Positions 1-5,513 of a stretch of 52,557 nucleotides of DNA are shown in pieces. The translations under genes and the position numbers were made by a program. The notes below the pieces were generated by a model, which was not told where the DNA came from, did no database searches, and saw only the letters and a program-made list of their open reading frames with translations. The first letter of the stretch is position 1. Each line of letters opens with the position of its first letter. Source of the DNA: an uncultured Bacteroidales bacterium (GTDB lineage: Bacteria > Bacteroidota > Bacteroidia > Bacteroidales > Paludibacteraceae); assembly GCA_902774075.1 (NCBI GenBank), contig CACYGT010000018.1, positions 1-52,557 on the forward strand, read 5' to 3'.

Positions 1-73
1 CGAGAAGTGGCGCAGTTGGTAGCGCACTACGTTCGGGACGTAGGGGTCGCGTGTTCGAGTCACGTCTTCTCGA
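1..73 (+). tRNA. tRNA-Pro(CGG)
   Basis: Full cloverleaf read by eye. The acceptor stem is CGAGAAG (1-7) with CTTCTCG (66-72), and A73 is the discriminator. The D stem is GCGC/GCGC (10-25). The anticodon stem CTACG/CGTAG (27-43) holds the loop TTCGGGA, so the anticodon is CGG and the codon CCG. The T arm (49-65) has loop TTCGAGT, with a G49-T65 wobble at its base. CCA is not encoded. The 3' end from base 65 is part of the 16-bp core duplicated at 5475-5490, so this gene is the integration target of the element that follows. The gene begins at the first base of the window, so its promoter is not visible. Confidence 0.95.
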
Positions 74-1661
74 CAAAAGGCGATTCAGATGGACAATCTG
101 AGTCGCTTTTTGATTTCTCATCCTCGCAACTATCTGATATTTCGCGTATTAGCGTTAGCACCTTATTAGCCTCAGGTGTTCGATAATTGCCTAAAAGGCG
201 GCTATATCTTACACCATTGGGAAAGGCTAAATTTTGCAGTTTTTGTCTCTCCTTGAAGCTTGCTTTTTGCCACAAATCGCCTAATTTACAGCACATTAGC
301 ATCATTTCATCAATAGATGGGAAAGTGTTCGATAATTGATTTTCAAGTTCGTCTCTTTGATTCCCTAATTCATATATCTCTACCTGTAAACGCTCTTTGG
401 CTATATCATAAGCAGACTTGGGTATCTCGCCAATTGCATAGCGATATTCTACATCTTGTAATTTGTTATGCTTCTCGGTTATTCGACTATATATCGTCTT
501 TAACGTTTGTTTATTATCGCCAAGATAGTTGGCAATCTCATCTTTAAGCATCGTCTTAACGATTGGTAACAATTCCTCGCGCACCTTATAATCGGTTAAC
601 AAGTCAAGATATGAGGCGTGCATTTCATTTGCATTGCAGTTACATTTGCAACCGTGTGTATTGCACTTGTAATAGTAGTGCGTGTGCTTTTTACGTTCGC
701 GTGTATAACCTGTTAATGCACCGCCGCAACAATCGCAGTAGATGTGTCGTTTCAAAGGGAACGGCGTTGTTTCCTCTTTCTGCACATAACCAGCATGAGA
801 CAAACCATTGGCAAGATTGAATGTAGTTTCATCTATCAATGCCTCATAATTACCTCTTACGCGATGATTTTCAGTATCTATCATTTCATGCTCTATCCAT
901 CCGGTATAGAAAACATTACGTAATATTCGACTTAGATTTTTCTCATCAATAGGTTTGTCATTACTTAGCCGTACACCAAGATTATTGAGTTTATGCACTA
1001 TGTCTATCACGCGTTCACCTTGCGCGCGCCAAACCCATGCATTTCGAAGCATCTCACCAGTTTCGTTGATTACTATAACATGGTGCTTAACATTACCTCG
1101 TTCTTCCCTTCTGACGCGCGTGTAACCTAATGGCACATGAAAACACCACTCTCCTCTATTTAACATGCGCACAATTCCTTCAGCGCATATTGCTTTGCGA
1201 TAATTGACATCTACCTTTCCTTGAATATCCCTTATTGAGTCTGCGTAATAACCACCTACATCATTACGATTGTAATTGGCTTCCGAGGTATATATAACAT
1301 ATATACCTTCCTCTTGCAATTCATCTTTTAGATTGATGGTTTTGCCGCCTGTTCGCCCAAATCGCTTGGAATCAAAACAAAGGATTATGTTGACTTGCTT
1401 GTCCTTTCGGGCATCTGCTATCATTGCGTCAAATAGTTTTCTCTCGCGTTTTGTGCCTGATTCGGCATCTTGTCCGTACCACTTTTTGATTGTGATTCCA
1501 TGCTGCGATGCAAAAGCCTTAATATCCTCTTCTTGAGAGGCGAGTGATGAGCCACGTGTTTTTTGTCCTTCGGAACTAACACGGGTCCAAGCATACGCCA
1601 CTTTGTTCGGTAAATCCTCAAATGATTTGCCTTGGTTTAATTTGATTTTACTTTTCTTCAT
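60..1661 (-). CDS. Large serine recombinase (integrase of the element)
   Basis: The 533-residue protein is the probable integrase. The N-terminal resolvase-type catalytic domain (about 20-155) has the nucleophile motif TRVSSEGQ, with Ser29 the likely catalytic residue, and DSKRFGR near residue 97 matches the conserved Arg segment. The recombinase domain (about 160-290) contains PLGYTR. A Cys-rich zinc ribbon spans about 309-345 (CDCCGG, then KCNTHGCKCNC), and a coiled coil follows at about 385-440. This order is that of large serine recombinases. The last codons lie in the att core: the frame runs PFVEK through the core and ends with one Thr and a stop inside tRNA-Pro. Across a circularised element the same frame would continue for 27 more residues (5392-5474), giving 559 residues. 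The start overlaps a small upstream ORF by 14 bp. Confidence 0.93.
   Translation of the reverse strand: MKKSKIKLNQGKSFEDLPNKVAYAWTRVSSEGQKTRGSSLASQEEDIKAFASQHGITIKKWYGQDAESGTKRERKLFDAMIADARKDKQVNIILCFDSKRFGRTGGKTINLKDELQEEGIYVIYTSEANYNRNDVGGYYADSIRDIQGKVDVNYRKAICAEGIVRMLNRGEWCFHVPLGYTRVRREERGNVKHHVIVINETGEMLRNAWVWRAQGERVIDIVHKLNNLGVRLSNDKPIDEKNLSRILRNVFYTGWIEHEMIDTENHRVRGNYEALIDETTFNLANGLSHAGYVQKEETTPFPLKRHIYCDCCGGALTGYTRERKKHTHYYYKCNTHGCKCNCNANEMHASYLDLLTDYKVREELLPIVKTMLKDEIANYLGDNKQTLKTIYSRITEKHNKLQDVEYRYAIGEIPKSAYDIAKERLQVEIYELGNQRDELENQLSNTFPSIDEMMLMCCKLGDLWQKASFKERQKLQNLAFPNGVRYSRLLGNYRTPEANKVLTLIREISDSCEDEKSKSDSDCPSESPFVEKT
65..80. repeat. attL core, 16-bp direct repeat at tRNA-Pro 3' end
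   Basis: TCTTCTCGACAAAAGG is identical to 5475-5490. It covers the last 9 bases of tRNA-Pro plus 7 bases downstream. Identity stops sharply on both sides (g/c before it, c/g after it). It is the left boundary of the integrated element. On the minus strand it is also coding, for the residues PFVEK near the end of the large recombinase. Confidence 0.9.
80..111 (+). terminator. Element-supplied terminator for tRNA-Pro
   Basis: An 11-bp stem is formed by GCGATTCAGAT (80-90) and ATCTGAGTCGC (96-106), with one G-T wobble and a 5-nt loop, followed by TTTTT. It lies just inside the element and replaces the original tRNA terminator, which was moved to 5491-5513 by the insertion. The same bases encode recombinase residues on the other strand. 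Confidence 0.75.
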
Positions 1662-1785
1662 TTGATAAACTCTTTATTGTTAATAATACTAAATTGTATA
1701 AAGACTGAATGATTTCGTTTCTATCTTCTTGACTTTCTATTCCTAATTCTAATAAATCCTTTTCATACTTGTTTGTATTTAGCAT
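1648..1785 (-). CDS. 45-residue small ORF upstream of the recombinase
   Basis: An intact ORF begins MLNTNKYEKDLLELGIESQE and ends SNEEK. Its stop lies 14 bp inside the recombinase gene, in another frame, which is the usual arrangement for translational coupling. The peptide is acidic and predicted helical. It is too short for a domain call and I do not recognise it. Candidate roles are a recombination directionality factor or a leader peptide, but nothing in the sequence decides between them. It is the only ORF between the recombinase and the promoter-like site at 1953. Confidence 0.5.
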   Translation of the reverse strand: MLNTNKYEKDLLELGIESQEDRNEIIQSLYNLVLLTIKSLSNEEK

Positions 1786-1974
1786 GTCGGTATTCGTATT
1801 TCCCTATCGGGCCGCTTATTAGGTTTTTAGGCTCATCGGTACACCCTTATGTGCTTTCGATTTCTTTTACTGCCGCCGTGGAAACCACCAACCAAGCAAT
1901 GATATTTGCATGTTACATCTAACTCATCTTTATCTTTGTTTTTAATTCATTGCAAATATACAATTTTTTTTCAA
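1786..1974 (-). promoter_or_regulatory. Promoter and long leader of the recombinase operon
   Basis: On the minus strand a -7 box TATATTTG lies at 1960-1953, with an A/T-rich upstream segment but no clean -33 box. The transcript would have about 165 nt before the small ORF. That leader is GC-richer than its surroundings and can form small hairpins, including GTGG-TTT-CCAC (near 1876-1886) and CCC-GATA-GGG (near 1804-1813). No known riboswitch class is recognised. Confidence 0.4.
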
Positions 1975-1986
1975 ATAATTAGAAAC

Positions 1987-2610
1987 TCATAACATTTCAC
2001 GCAATTTTCTTAGCGTGTTAACACTCGTTCCCGTTATGGATTGTATGTTACGAAGCGAGATACCCTTGCGTAATAGCGCCATCTCTTTACTATATTGTGC
2101 TCGCATATCTGCTTCACTCTTTCTATACCCTTCTTTTCGTCCCACCTTTCCGCCATTAGCACGATATACTTTGTAACCACTTGCCATACGGCTACGTATC
2201 AGACTACGCTCCATACTATTAAACTGCCCAATAATGCCAAGTACCAATTGCGCAATAGGATTTACTGATCCATCAGCCATCAAAGTCTCTAATCCATTTT
2301 GTAGGATATAGACACTCACTTTCATCTGAGTTAATTGCTCTATCACTTGAAGGAAATCAATAGCACGGCGGCTAATTCGGCTGCACTCATATACAAGTAC
2401 CTTATCTATGTGATTAGTAGCGGCGAAGTCTAACAAGTCTGTAAGGGCTTGACGCTCTGCAATGGTTTTAGCACCGCTGATTTTCTCACTAAACTCTCGC
2501 ACAACCTCATAGTTCATACGTTCTGCATAGTCTCGCAACTCGGTTAGTTGACGTTGATAGTCTTGTCCTTGTGTGCTCACCCGAGCATAGATACAAATTC
2601 TAGTCTTCAT
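1987..2610 (-). CDS. Small serine recombinase (resolvase/invertase family)
   Basis: The 207-residue protein has a resolvase catalytic domain with the motif YARVSTQGQ; Ser12 is the nucleophile and Arg10 precedes it. YECSRISRR near residue 80 and the long E helix (IGQFNSMERSLIRSRMASG) match the family. A short C-terminal helix-turn-helix (about 165-207) follows. The length is normal for resolvases and DNA invertases. In the element it could resolve dimers of a circular form or invert a segment, but I found no obvious pair of inverted 26-bp sites. It is transcribed divergently from the XRE regulator, from a recognisable promoter at 2693-2724. Confidence 0.9.
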   Translation of the reverse strand: MKTRICIYARVSTQGQDYQRQLTELRDYAERMNYEVVREFSEKISGAKTIAERQALTDLLDFAATNHIDKVLVYECSRISRRAIDFLQVIEQLTQMKVSVYILQNGLETLMADGSVNPIAQLVLGIIGQFNSMERSLIRSRMASGYKVYRANGGKVGRKEGYRKSEADMRAQYSKEMALLRKGISLRNIQSITGTSVNTLRKLREML

Positions 2611-2692
2611 ACTTACTTATTGATCAATTAAATTTTATCATATTGCAATTATTGTTAAATATCATTACGATATATTCTAACTTATTTTGAAG

Positions 2693-2724
2693 CTAAGGTA
2701 CAGCTTTTTTTCGAAATATACAAA
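2693..2724 (-). promoter_or_regulatory. Promoter of the small recombinase
   Basis: Minus-strand TTTG (2724-2721), a 20-base gap, then TACCTTAG (2700-2693), preceded by an A-tract and GCTG. The -7 box differs from the consensus TAnnTTTG at one base (T to A). It leaves an 80-nt leader. Confidence 0.55.
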
Positions 2725-2772
2725 TTTTTAATCAAAAAAATTGCAATATTTTGCATTTTTTTATCATTTTTA

Positions 2773-2804
2773 TTTGATTATTTGATAATTTTTTATTACC
2801 TTTG
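2773..2804 (+). promoter_or_regulatory. Promoter of the XRE regulator
   Basis: TTTG (2773-2776), a 20-base gap, then TACCTTTG (2797-2804), a full match to the Bacteroidota consensus. Its position rules out the upstream in-frame ATG at 2782 as the start of the regulator. Confidence 0.75.
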
Positions 2805-2820
2805 CAAAAAAATTTCGATT

Positions 2821-3177
2821 ATGATTAAGAAAAGAAATGCAACCAAAAGAATAGAAGCCTCAGAACTTTTGGAATACAATGTAAAAAGGCATGTATCCTA
2901 TCGGAATACTCATGGCTATCGCTCTTTGGCGGAACTAGCTAAAGCTATCGGCATTTCTGCGCCGACGCTGACTCATGCACTCAAAGGAAACCCCAGCCTC
3001 AGCACAATTCAAAAGATTGCAGATGCGTTAAATGCACCAGTCTCGCAATTATTCAAACAAAAAGTAAAAGTAGAGGGCTATGCCATTATCAGAGGCAATG
3101 ATAGAGTTTTGTTTTCTAGTGTAGAAGAACTAGAAGGCATCATTGCGGAAGCAAAGAAAACAAATATCGTATGGTAA
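2821..3177 (+). CDS. XRE-family helix-turn-helix regulator
   Basis: The 118-residue protein has a Cro/C1-type helix-turn-helix at about residues 33-77 (SLAELAKAIGISAPTLTHAL is the two-helix core). A short C-terminal segment, VEGYAIIRGNDRVLFSSVEE, resembles tails common in Bacteroidota XRE proteins. The ATG at 2821 is chosen because the longer frame from 2782 would start inside the promoter. The 5' leader is then only about 10 nt. The gene is divergent from the small recombinase with 210 bp between them, the usual place for a repressor that controls both promoters. It is probably the regulator of the element, by inference from position. Confidence 0.85.
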   Translation: MIKKRNATKRIEASELLEYNVKRHVSYRNTHGYRSLAELAKAIGISAPTLTHALKGNPSLSTIQKIADALNAPVSQLFKQKVKVEGYAIIRGNDRVLFSSVEELEGIIAEAKKTNIVW

Positions 3178-3180
3178 AAC

Positions 3181-3206
3181 AGATAGGAGGCATGTGCCCC
3201 CTATCT
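3181..3206 (+). terminator. Hairpin after the XRE gene
   Basis: AGATAGG (3181-3187) pairs with CCTATCT (3200-3206), extended by GGC/GCC around the loop ATGT with one A-C mismatch. It sits 3 bp after the stop codon. There is no strong T-run, so termination may be inefficient. Confidence 0.5.
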
Positions 3207-3269
3207 ATTTAGATGTATTCAATTTTCTCTAAACTTCGAATGCTACTATTTTTCTCTCCAGACTACTAG

Positions 3270-3740
3270 TTATCGTATGCCGTTTAGTTTTTCAAAATCA
3301 GCAATAGAATTATTTTTCGTGGTTCGAACAAAATTTAAATATGTTATGTCTATTCTTGGATAATTTTCATCTTTAAATGTTACATTATTTGCATCTTCCC
3401 ACATAACATAAAGATTTGCCACCCTTGAATCATATATGGTTAAAAAGTTTTCTTGATAATCATAATCATATCTACGAATATACTGTAGTTCCCAATATGG
3501 AATCGTATCATGAGTGATCCATTGATTACTTACAGAATCAAATCTGTTTACTTTATCATTATAACTGTACATTTTCATAAGATTATCGCTTATTTCACAA
3601 TAATCTGCTAAATGGCTGGGACTACTTTTTGTTTCTAACCAACAGCCTTTCAACGCTCCAATAGTGCCATTTCTCTCACAAGAAGACAATATTATGATTG
3701 TACATAAAAAAGCACAAATCACACAAATTCTGTTTATCAT
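3270..3740 (-). CDS. Hypothetical lipoprotein of the element
   Basis: The 156-residue protein has a short N-terminal signal with the lipobox LSSC, lipidated Cys21. The mature part is rich in Tyr, Asp and Asn, begins with NGTIGALKGCWLE and is probably beta-rich. The opening, in which a conserved Trp follows GxxxGxW-like spacing, is reminiscent of lipocalin-like lipoproteins, but I cannot make a firm family call. It is expressed from its own strong promoter at 3811-3842. In a small mobile element a surface lipoprotein could act in entry exclusion or host fitness; this is speculation. Confidence 0.7.
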   Translation of the reverse strand: MINRICVICAFLCTIIILSSCERNGTIGALKGCWLETKSSPSHLADYCEISDNLMKMYSYNDKVNRFDSVSNQWITHDTIPYWELQYIRRYDYDYQENFLTIYDSRVANLYVMWEDANNVTFKDENYPRIDITYLNFVRTTKNNSIADFEKLNGIR

Positions 3741-3810
3741 ATAATTTTGCCCTTATATTATATGTTAATGAGTTTATCCCTCATTAGCAAACGTTTTTGA
3801 TAATCCTCTG

Positions 3811-3842
3811 CAAAGGTACAGCTTTTTTCTGACATGTGCAAA
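3811..3842 (-). promoter_or_regulatory. Promoter of the element lipoprotein
   Basis: Minus-strand TTTG (3842-3839), a 20-base gap ending in AAAAAAGCTG, then TACCTTTG (3818-3811). It is a full consensus match and the 12 bases before the -7 box are almost the same as in the small-recombinase promoter. Confidence 0.75.
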
Positions 3843-3932
3843 TTTTTATATGTGCCAAATAATTTTTTTGATTGTTTTGACACATTTTGTACATATCATA
3901 AAGCCTCAGCAGAAGATTAAAAGGTATCATAA

Positions 3933-4862
3933 TTACATTGATACAATCATCCCCATGATTTTGTCCCGCATATTGCTTCCATTAATTGTTGAAGCCTTCT
4001 CATTTAGAGCCTTTCGATATGGGGCTAATATTTTTGACATGTTGTTACCCCGTAAGTAGAGACTCCTCATTTTAGCTTCTACTTCCTCTATGTCGTAATG
4101 ACAATCTTCTAATACCAACTTAATCATATAATCCTTTATGCCCGTTGTTGATATTGAATTATTATTTGCTAATACCTTGTCCATAAAATATGATATAGGA
4201 TGTGCAGAACTCTGTAAAACTGACAAGAGATGTGTATCTGCAATATCTAGCGACTCCCGTATTTGCGCTTGGCTATCAAGAGATAATTCAAACCTACACT
4301 TCCCTTTGAAATCTTTTCCATCTATGCCGTACATGTTCCTAAATGTGCGGTTCTCTGCTCTGTTTATTTCTGCTTCTTTGTCGTAAATCGTTAGTTTCTT
4401 CATGGCTGTCTTACTCGTAACGTTTTTACTAATGGTAAAGTTTCCGTTTCTATGTTGACGTGGAATGTATAACCTATAACTAGAAATGTTGTTTCGTATA
4501 AATGAGCACATCCCTTTTATATCTTCACACTCTACGTCGGTAGTGACATCACATGAACATACTACGCTATCATTGATAAGATTGTCTATGTCTAACGTGC
4601 AGATGCCTAAAGCGTTGATATTCTCGAAGCATTGTCGGATAGTGTCTAATGATATGAGTTGAGGATATTGCTTTCCTAATACTTTTCCGGTAAATTCGAT
4701 GAACACCTCCGGCATGGTATAGTTGATTTTGATTGTTAGTAAGTAGGGCACTTTCTGTTTGTACATCAAGTTGCCCTTTTTGTCTTTCTCAAACTCGTTA
4801 AGGTTGATATTAGTTACATATTCTATCTTGCTTGAAATCTTTAGTTTGTCAAATGTTATCAC
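3933..4862 (-). CDS. Replication-initiator-like protein
   Basis: The 309-residue protein resembles the loose group of phage/plasmid replication proteins related to filamentous-phage gene II/X and rolling-circle Rep proteins. Supporting signs are the beta-rich first half (TIKINYTMPEVFIEFTGKVL), the segment KKLTIYDKEAEI near residue 155, where a Tyr-Asp-Lys triad is typical, and CRFELSLDSQAQIRESL near residue 189. I cannot identify a canonical HUH motif by eye, so the assignment rests on pattern and context. The start is GTG; there is no in-frame ATG until residue 33. It follows the small basic protein gene by 67 bp on the same strand, downstream of a palindrome-rich non-coding segment. It would allow the excised circle to replicate. 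Confidence 0.5.
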   Translation of the reverse strand: MITFDKLKISSKIEYVTNINLNEFEKDKKGNLMYKQKVPYLLTIKINYTMPEVFIEFTGKVLGKQYPQLISLDTIRQCFENINALGICTLDIDNLINDSVVCSCDVTTDVECEDIKGMCSFIRNNISSYRLYIPRQHRNGNFTISKNVTSKTAMKKLTIYDKEAEINRAENRTFRNMYGIDGKDFKGKCRFELSLDSQAQIRESLDIADTHLLSVLQSSAHPISYFMDKVLANNNSISTTGIKDYMIKLVLEDCHYDIEEVEAKMRSLYLRGNNMSKILAPYRKALNEKASTINGSNMRDKIMGMIVSM

Positions 4863-4929
4863 TCTATTACATAGTTTATTACCTCGTTATCATTACCTAA
4901 AATCATGCAACCCTTACCTTAATAAGTGG

Positions 4930-5130
4930 TTAGTTTGCACCTATTAAATTGTCCATAGTAATACCCGATTTCGGGCGGTGTGGGACAGTTTTCCAATAGT
5001 CTTCAAGAGATTTTTTTATCCTTTGTTTGTGGAGTTCGCTCTTGTGCTTACCTTGAGTGCTGCGGCTGATACGCTCGCGTGTGACGTCATCTAATTCGCG
5101 CCATTGTCTTTTGTGTTGTTTGTTTTCCAT
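4930..5130 (-). CDS. Small basic NUMOD3-like protein
   Basis: The 66-residue, highly charged protein contains the pattern RERISRSTQGKHKSELHKQR followed by IKKSLEDYW. Pairs of short helices joined by a Gly-Lys-His turn like this resemble NUMOD3-type DNA-binding modules known from homing-endonuclease tails. No nuclease domain is present. It is probably transcribed with the replication-like gene downstream, and could bind the non-coding segment at 5131-5391. A weak promoter (CTTG, a 19-base gap, TATATTTA at 5175-5168) lies upstream, and a TAGGC/GCCTA hairpin (5141-5158) sits just before the start. Confidence 0.6.
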   Translation of the reverse strand: MENKQHKRQWRELDDVTRERISRSTQGKHKSELHKQRIKKSLEDYWKTVPHRPKSGITMDNLIGAN

Positions 5131-5391
5131 AATTTATATTTAGGCGTTTTAATGCCTACTCCTTATATAAATATAGTAAGAGTAACAAAAATGACAAGTA
5201 TAGTAGAGATTTTTATAGGTAAAAGTTAGAAAAAAATATTGTATTCACTAAGTGTATAAGTTATTATACATACTATTTTTTTCAAAATGTCCAAGGGGAA
5301 ACGCACACGCATTCCTTGAAAATACAGGGAGGAATGGCTGAGGCTATCTACAAATAATAGCCTCAACCTCATATATATACAGGGACGATTT
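5131..5391. other. Non-coding palindrome-rich end of the element, candidate origin
   Basis: There is no credible ORF. The segment contains three inverted repeats: TAGGC/GCCTA (5141-5158), TGTATAA-GTTA-TTATACA (5253-5270, 7-bp stem), and TGAGGCTAT with ATAGCCTCA (5339-5365, 9-bp stem, 9-nt loop). The middle part is very AT-rich. Its position upstream of the replication-like operon fits a replication origin or transfer origin, but no known nick site is recognised. Confidence 0.4.
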
Positions 5392-5474
5392 TTATTTAAA
5401 TATTGTCGGAAACTCTTCTATAAACGCTTCTATTCGCCGCGCATCACGAAAGAAATCGTTCGATAATTCGATAC
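5392..5474 (-). other. Displaced 3' end of the recombinase gene
   Basis: Reading the minus strand out of the right-hand core in the recombinase frame gives PFVEK and then 27 more residues starting SIELSNDFFRDARRIEAF and ending PTIFK with a stop at 5392. In the circular element this stretch would be joined directly to the recombinase frame at the core. In the integrated state it is cut off from the recombinase start by the whole element. Confidence 0.8.
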
Positions 5475-5490
5475 TCTTCTCGACAAAAGG
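5475..5490. repeat. attR core, 16-bp direct repeat
   Basis: Second copy of TCTTCTCGACAAAAGG, the right boundary of the element. Only the last 9 bases of tRNA-Pro are present here; there is no second tRNA gene. Confidence 0.9.
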
Positions 5491-5513
5491 GCAGTCAAAC
5501 GACTGCTCTTTTT
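5491..5513 (+). terminator. Original tRNA-Pro terminator, displaced
   Basis: GCAGTC (5491-5496), loop AAAC, GACTGC (5501-5506), followed by a T-rich run. It lies directly after the right core, exactly where the tRNA-Pro terminator would be in the empty site. Confidence 0.75.

Follow-up and report, generated by a model that had tools for sequence, protein, structure and literature searches.

Integration appears to rewrite the very enzyme that performs it in the stretch of DNA analysed here, contig 18 (CACYGT010000018.1) of the draft genome (1.8 Mb, 95 contigs, 85.75% complete) of an uncultured Bacteroidales bacterium of the family Paludibacteraceae; the whole stretch, 52,557 bp, is referred to as the window. 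The window begins with a 5.4-kb integrative element, and the gene for its large serine recombinase (LSR) runs into the 3′ end of a tRNA-Pro gene. The best explanation of the whole, with a probability of about 0.72, is that the attP site lies in the last codons of the LSR gene, that the C-terminal tail of the enzyme is swapped at integration, and that the tailed form is the one that integrates. The geometry, the continuous frame, the selection of the tail as protein, a 5-bp shift of the att motif, and a replacement terminator are established at the level of DNA sequence. That integration changes the encoded enzyme is well supported by the reading frames, and we infer from these features that the tail would act as a functional switch.

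The Core Repeat and Two Forms of the Recombinase

The 16-bp core TCTTCTCGACAAAAGG occurs in exactly two copies on the + strand of the window (Table 1), the chance expectation for copies in the window on both strands being 3.7e-5. The frame of the resident LSR stops one residue past the first copy. At the far copy, the same phase reads PFVEK followed by SIELSNDFFRDARRIEAFIEEFPTIFK and a stop codon at 5392-5394, and joining of the two parts predicts a circle-form LSR of 532 + 27 = 559 residues. The original prediction, made from the window alone, had placed the core inside the 3′ end of the LSR gene and given 533 and 559 residues for the integrated and free forms; coordinates and translation agree with it exactly, and the frame through both cores bears out its claim that attP lies inside the LSR gene and that the two forms encode different C-termini. 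The original prediction is supported in that part; its further suggestion, of an integration-proficient free form and of changed activity or stability in the integrated one, is a proposal. Both the tRNA-Pro site, searched as an exact pattern, and the window tail, searched with a profile at E up to 1, occur once in the whole assembly.

The LSR matches the Pfam families Resolvase (PF00239, 6.9e-17) and Recombinase (PF07508, 2.1e-10), both over cut-off, and this order of a Resolvase-type catalytic domain followed by a Recombinase domain identifies it as a large serine recombinase; the match to the zinc ribbon family PF13408 is under cut-off (20.4 vs 25.3 bits). With a displaced core and hairpin at one end and the whole target at the other, the element has the layout of a tRNA-targeting genomic island. 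The first base of the contig is base 1 of tRNA-Pro(cgg), so that the chromosome past the tRNA at attL is out of view. Contig starts inside or near the 3′ part of the LSR gene were also observed in relatives (G271:C78, G236:C5, and G258:C47), and contig breaks at base 1 of the tRNA or in this 3′ part might arise from a mixture of integrated and free forms.

Table 1. Positions of the att sites, genes, and hairpins of the element in the window.
Feature	Position	Strand	Basis or remark
Target tRNA-Pro(cgg), whole at attL	1-74	+	ARAGORN
attB half-site motif GTTCGA (T-loop)	53-58	+	LSR-strand TCGAAC starts 16 nt past crossover G
LSR, integrated form, 533 aa, ending in SESPFVEKT and stop	60-1661	-	Open reading frame, Pfam
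attL core, 16 bp	65-80		Repeat search; inferred crossover GT (LSR strand) at 74-73, the tRNA 3′ end
Intrinsic-terminator-like hairpin and T-run within LSR linker codons, replacing the tRNA's own terminator	75-111	+	Fold z -6.0
Small serine recombinase, 207 aa	1987-2610	-	Pfam Resolvase; matches in 18/28 loci, 30-93% identity
Helix-turn-helix regulator, 118 aa	2821-3177	+	Family search; matches in 13/28 loci
Hypothetical protein, 156 aa	3270-3740	-	
309-aa protein common to relatives	3933-4862	-	Matches in 13/28 loci
Conserved small protein, 66 aa	4930-5130	-	Matches in 10/28 loci
Displaced LSR tail, 27 codons and stop, in the LSR frame through the core	5392-5475	-	Translation
attP half-site motif GTTCGA	5458-5463	+	LSR-strand TCGAAC starts 21 nt past crossover G
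attR core, 16 bp	5475-5490		Repeat search
Hairpin and T-run displaced to attR, taken as the native tRNA-Pro terminator	5485-5513	+	Fold z -2.5

Relatives of the Element and Continuity of the Frame

Matches to the window LSR were found in 31 of 178 genus genomes and, at E 1e-30, in 28 of 295 order genomes and 38 of 296 phylum genomes, the window genome being counted each time; the genomes compared are mostly drafts, and the element counts are not corrected for relatedness. Twenty genus elements were examined with an LSR converging into the 3′ end of a tRNA or transfer-messenger RNA (tmRNA), the targets being tRNA-Pro(cgg), tRNA-Pro(tgg), tRNA-Leu(gag), tRNA-Leu(taa), and tmRNA, and 14 of the 20 gave the other end with its tail. 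Among the six misses, which include the sole tRNA-Pro(tgg) element, five run off their contigs (L054, L055, L056, L057, and L059) and L061 is a true miss. Outside the genus, many of the scanned LSR genes, not all, end at tRNAs (Ala, Ser, Arg, Met, Leu, Pro, Lys, Glu, and Asn). Forty LSR stretches were taken there, seven of them extended 40-60 kb upstream, and 11 gave a tail and its attL (four of these after extension); many of the misses may be larger elements with the far end beyond the stretch. All 11 tail-bearing elements are from the order or class of the window, no tail was found in the stretches taken for L189 and L196 from other classes, and the tail architecture is documented within one class only. 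Across the relatives, the same architecture is found at tRNA-Pro, -Leu, -Ala, -Ser, -Met, and -Arg and at tmRNA, and, counted from the crossover codon, the tails outside the genus are 21 to 47 residues long, a range that also holds the genus tails.

The LSR frame continues through the core into the tail in 25/25 elements with both ends located. Twenty-six elements were tried, L198 being included as the 25th and L202 left out for its want of a tRNA-type attL, and five of the 25 (L060, L062, L028, L029, and L173) were located using the in-frame condition and so are not independent. With phases taken relative to the core and not from linear coordinates, LSR and tail agree in phase at the crossover in 24/24 elements (16 in phase 0 and 8 in phase 1), and L198 adds one more. 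The most telling comparison is between the window and L024/L053, which share the tRNA-Pro core GTCGAGAAG, yet differ in LSR phase (VEK vs SR), and in which each tail keeps the phase of its own LSR. The frame past the core, whose loss or interruption in relatives had been named as a point on which the original prediction could fail, is conserved and uninterrupted in all 25. Frame continuity, together with the selection on the tail of relatives described below, argues that the arrangement in the window is not due to chance.

Attachment Sites and the Crossover

On the LSR strand, the relatives carry the complement of the T-loop, TCGAAC or a close variant of it, 16 nt from a G on the tRNA side and 21 nt from a G on the tail side, the G of attR having been set by counting 21 nt back from the motif. 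The four bases from this G are identical between attL and attR in 24/24 elements, and the attR motif contains CGAAC or CGAAT in 23/24, L188 having a variant; the stretch shared at the crossover is down to four bases in some tRNA-Leu(gag) elements. In the Listeria integrase, the zinc-ribbon motif is reported to lie closer to the crossover in attB than in attP, by 5 bp (PMC3783163). The same 5-bp shift, a known rule of serine integrases, is found here. The match with that rule favours a crossover placed at the tRNA 3′ end, and by analogy TCGAAC is probably the zinc-ribbon motif. The distance from the tRNA 3′ end to the T-loop is nearly constant, which may be why a single family of enzymes suits so many tRNAs. 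The motif codons encode early residues of the tail, namely LSN, SRT, or YRT according to phase. A repeat with three copies, GTTCGATAATT (family D3), has two of them in LSR-body codons for NYRT and LSNT and is probably a coincidence.

Selection on the Tail

Seven pairs of tails were pooled and the codons overlapping the attP motif excluded. In the LSR frame, the tail codons past the motif gave proportions of synonymous (pS) and nonsynonymous (pN) differences of 0.71 and 0.18, a ratio of 0.25; the same DNA read in the other two frames gave 1.07 and 1.19, and the LSR body, in five of the seven pairs, 0.26. Differences at codon positions 1, 2, and 3 of the tail numbered 171, 111, and 302 of 570 in 28 pairs, and 32, 16, and 55 of 126 in six separate pairs (chi-square p 2e-7). 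Over the 60 nt past the stop of the shorter tail, DNA identity is 0.17-0.40 in 27 of the 28 pairs, the exception being L149/L154 at 0.92. Furthermore, a tail profile of 31 positions recovered tails in genus genomes that had not been used in its construction (L149, L154, L167, L069, L153, and L155); a weak profile match in L157, a 571-aa open reading frame, was dropped for having no LSR match at E 1e-5. By eye, the tails have varied endings and a common internal pattern, S/Y-N/R-x-F-x-x-D/S-L. The substitution patterns indicate that the tail is protein-coding and under purifying selection within clades, and a common ancestry of all tails is likely.

Replacement of the tRNA Terminator

Just 3′ of the tRNA, the linker codons of the LSR form a hairpin in the relatives as well. 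Among 46 attL sites chosen by hand where a tRNA or tmRNA abuts an LSR gene, a set that does not include every such locus, a hairpin with z < -2 was found in 45 (median -5.15; L118 is the exception) and a T-run of at least 4 in all 46. In the alignment, the frequent lysine codons of the linker are the complement of the terminator T-run. At synonymous sites the linker has diverged less than the body (0.40 vs 0.75), as overlapping functions would predict, and the linker codons appear to double as a replacement terminator for the invaded tRNA. A second hairpin stands by the tail in 28/30 sites, one of the 28 being the LSR's own hairpin at the L190 junction, which leaves 27/29 attR-type tails; within this set, the attR position used for L060 was out by a few bases, L198 was misplaced, and L154 is without a hairpin. 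The tail-side hairpin is taken to be the original terminator of the tRNA, moved away from it by integration.

Tandem Arrays, Remnants, and a Modelled Tail

Contig 19 of genome G854 contains two LSR genes approximately 27 kb apart. The second ends in tRNA-Met, whereas no tRNA adjoins the end of the first (L117/L190), which continues in frame into a tail, SVALTGQFSNHFINDLKILG and a stop. The locus is read as two elements in series and L117/L190 as a naturally joined LSR and tail, the tail being its own or that of another element. In genome G665, two or more tails stand in series upstream of the LSRs at tRNA-Ala and two tRNA-Ser sites. Related tails of the VEQSGQ-SNQLLSDLLIL type were observed serially upstream of one tRNA-Ala LSR (L214-L216; G665 contig 1, 4.502-4.549 Mb), and this series seems to reflect repeated accretion at one site.

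Fragments of LSR genes were observed as well. C-terminal-only fragments adjoin tRNA-Pro in L023 (8936-9190), L067 (1182-1322), and L066 (13119-13469), and another adjoins tRNA-Leu in L069 (1031-1234), with a tail approximately 1.8 kb off; they are either remnants or minimal elements borrowing an LSR. In L057 (G249 contig 51), two different LSR genes lie within approximately 100 bp near tRNA-Pro, the tRNA-adjacent one being frame-broken.

The L117 protein was modelled with AlphaFold2 at a mean predicted local distance difference test score (pLDDT) of 86.5, with residues 525-546 below 50 and a terminal helix at 547-554 of approximately 50, and its tail is accordingly modelled as a short helix on a flexible tether. 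Long helices at 368-416 and 422-446 in this model of a relative, taken with the PF13408 match of the window LSR and the structural matches, indicate a coiled coil inserted in the zinc ribbon. Foldseek matches of the model are serine integrases (9y66, 9dxd, Bxb1 9iu2, phiC31 9rah, and LI 4kis), with a best E of 2.4e-16 and whole-chain template modelling scores of 0.2-0.4.

Relation to Known Systems

The integrase of Myxococcus phage Mx8 (Int) is a tyrosine recombinase, and the SSV integrase is a tyrosine enzyme of archaeal viruses. In Mx8, with attP in int, the gene acquires a different 3′ end on integration, and the altered integrase is described as modified in specificity, not inactivated, and as a molecular switch (PMC6070905). 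On that account, the parallel with Mx8 had been drawn correctly from the window: integration replaces the C-terminus of the integrase in both, although the Mx8 enzyme is the tyrosine enzyme of a phage and the present one a serine recombinase of small and larger elements. The SSV-type integrase gene is named beside Mx8 as one that extends across attP (PMC4383910); it resembles the window gene in spanning attP and differs from it in encoding a tyrosine enzyme of archaeal viruses. Judged from its domains, which are serine and not tyrosine, the window LSR would work like the Mx8- and SSV-type integrases without being a member of them. In mycobacteriophage BPs, attP lies in the repressor gene, and the prophage protein is reported to be shorter, having lost a tail with a degradation tag (PMC4557955). 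Here too attP is inside a coding gene and integration shortens the protein, but the gene is that of the recombinase instead of the repressor, and the system is not one of integration-dependent immunity. The precedents found are tyrosine integrases, Mx8 being the direct one and SSV the other, and BPs does the equivalent with its repressor gene.

Phage serine integrases (Listeria LI/A118, Bxb1, and phiC31) share the domain order, the fold, and the 5-bp motif shift with the present family, whereas here the target is the 3′ end of a tRNA or tmRNA gene and attP is inside the enzyme's own gene. No serine recombinase with attP in its own gene was found among the titles and opening abstracts listed for openly licensed PMC papers, the extent of this search, in keeping with the original prediction, which knew of no described case for a large serine recombinase in Bacteroidota.

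Proposed Mechanism and Alternatives

In the circle, the LSR gene would comprise, in order, the catalytic and DNA-binding domains, a flexible linker, the crossover GT, the tail-side attP half-site, and a short tail, which is conserved and probably helical. Recombination with the tRNA 3′ end would strand the tail at the opposite end of the element, and the resident LSR would gain a few antisense-tRNA residues in its place. The tailed enzyme would be the form that integrates; the resident enzyme without the tail would be altered and would most probably have lost the ability to integrate again, being either idle or excision-biased, until excision or tandem insertion restored the tail. The tail is selected even though it is not available as a C-terminus to the integrated copy, which argues for a function exerted in the circle, integration being the simplest. 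The resident enzyme could be inactive, excision-biased, or more stable, and loss of integration activity is favoured. The direction of the LI integrase has been tied to coiled-coil contacts (PMC3783163), and it is plausible, as a guess, that the tethered tail helix modulates such contacts. A wider reading is held more tentatively, at somewhat less than even odds: that the elements represent a family of serine integrases, at least class-wide, which recognise the universal tRNA T-loop and have their own C-terminus rewritten at each integration. The tail would be a regulatory peptide on a tether, which would license attP x attB synapsis and be removed by that very reaction, direction would be written covalently into the gene and rewritten by tandem insertion or excision, and the same 3′ end would carry on its opposite strand the terminator that repairs transcription of the invaded tRNA.

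Several observations weigh against the tail swap as proposed. No circle, and no close relative, was found in viral contigs searched with the window LSR, and three LSR queries against phages and plasmids gave distant matches only, all below 60% identity, so that the free or plasmid forms that the original prediction had suggested looking for did not appear there; of the distant phage matches, the six records examined, unannotated faecal phage scaffolds, gave no tail match of at least 11 bits. Empty sites, likewise suggested, were sought via the flanking thioredoxin gene, which was matched in 150 of 178 genus genomes. No empty attB was seen at the 29 loci examined besides that of the window, and the only one with a tRNA within 700 bp has tRNA-Ala. 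Regarding the two ends, L061 is without a tail in 12.8 kb, three of the seven LSRs extended 40-60 kb upstream still gave none, the att pairs of L178, L182, L183, and L188 lie on separate stretches and were paired by position and core only, L173 depends on the spacing rule alone, L202 has a tail and no tRNA-type attL, and the L205 LSR has an internal stop. The tails themselves are loosely alike between clades: with the clade withheld, the true tail ranked first in 11/21 cases, in 0/6 for tRNA-Leu(gag), and the window tail came second (6.3 vs 10.6 bits). Nine codons, those between the crossover and the motif's end, double as attP DNA, and the modelled tail helix is of low confidence (about 50) and offers no docking surface to judge.

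The strongest alternative, which is nonetheless unlikely, takes the tail to be needed for activity as such: integration would kill the resident gene and thereby stabilise the insertion, excision would need a full-length LSR from an incoming or tandem copy, and there would be no regulated switch. A tail about as constrained as the LSR body, the serial tails and remnants at tRNA sites, and the C-terminal-only fragments beside tRNAs all agree with such one-shot use. However, most full-length resident LSRs among the matches listed are stop-free, a state that a dead gene would soon lose unless the insertion were recent, and the altered integrase of Mx8, reported as not inactivated (PMC6070905), speaks for change over plain inactivation. 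It is decidedly less probable that the tail is a degradation signal, whose removal by integration stabilises the LSR. The BPs repressor, 33 residues longer in the virus, follows the same logic (PMC4557955; also PMC5559632), but the present tails end variously by eye, their common pattern being internal, with no common C-terminus. That the tail stays open as a consequence of conserved attP DNA, and is no selected peptide, is very improbable: the nine codons up to the end of TCGAAC are indeed attP DNA, but the ratio of 0.25 past the motif appears in the LSR frame alone and in elements that cross the core in two phases, and conservation of DNA only was rejected on this three-frame control. Chance repetition or an assembly artefact, suggested by a contig that starts exactly at the tRNA, is ruled out for practical purposes by relatives with the same structure, including the single-contig genomes G665 and G802, and by the displaced hairpins at the attR-type tails.

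Other Genes of the Element

Between the LSR gene and its displaced tail, the element encodes five further proteins (Table 1). The 207-aa small serine recombinase is perhaps a resolvase for multimers or arrays; its weakest matches (30%) may be unrelated resolvases, and two matches outside the genus were observed at 68% identity. The 156-aa protein has no Pfam match over cut-off, no PHROG or NCBIfam family, and no match in the 28 loci. The 309-aa protein has no Pfam, PHROG, or NCBIfam family; its AlphaFold2 model is confident (pLDDT 84.7) and matched no PDB fold (best E 0.013), and a new replication or transfer protein is a guess.

Perspective

One-way integration by serine integrases is a central question for phage biology and genome engineering. 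In the family described here, the sequence of the enzyme would depend on the state of its DNA, and a natural pair of proteins, alike except at the tail, would allow form, direction, and stability to be compared. A family that uses the T-loop would follow a simple attB rule for many tRNA genes, in contrast to a 2014 statement that serine integrases are not known to specify tRNA genes. In the circle, approximately 130 bp would carry a protein linker, a tRNA terminator, attP, and a selected peptide.

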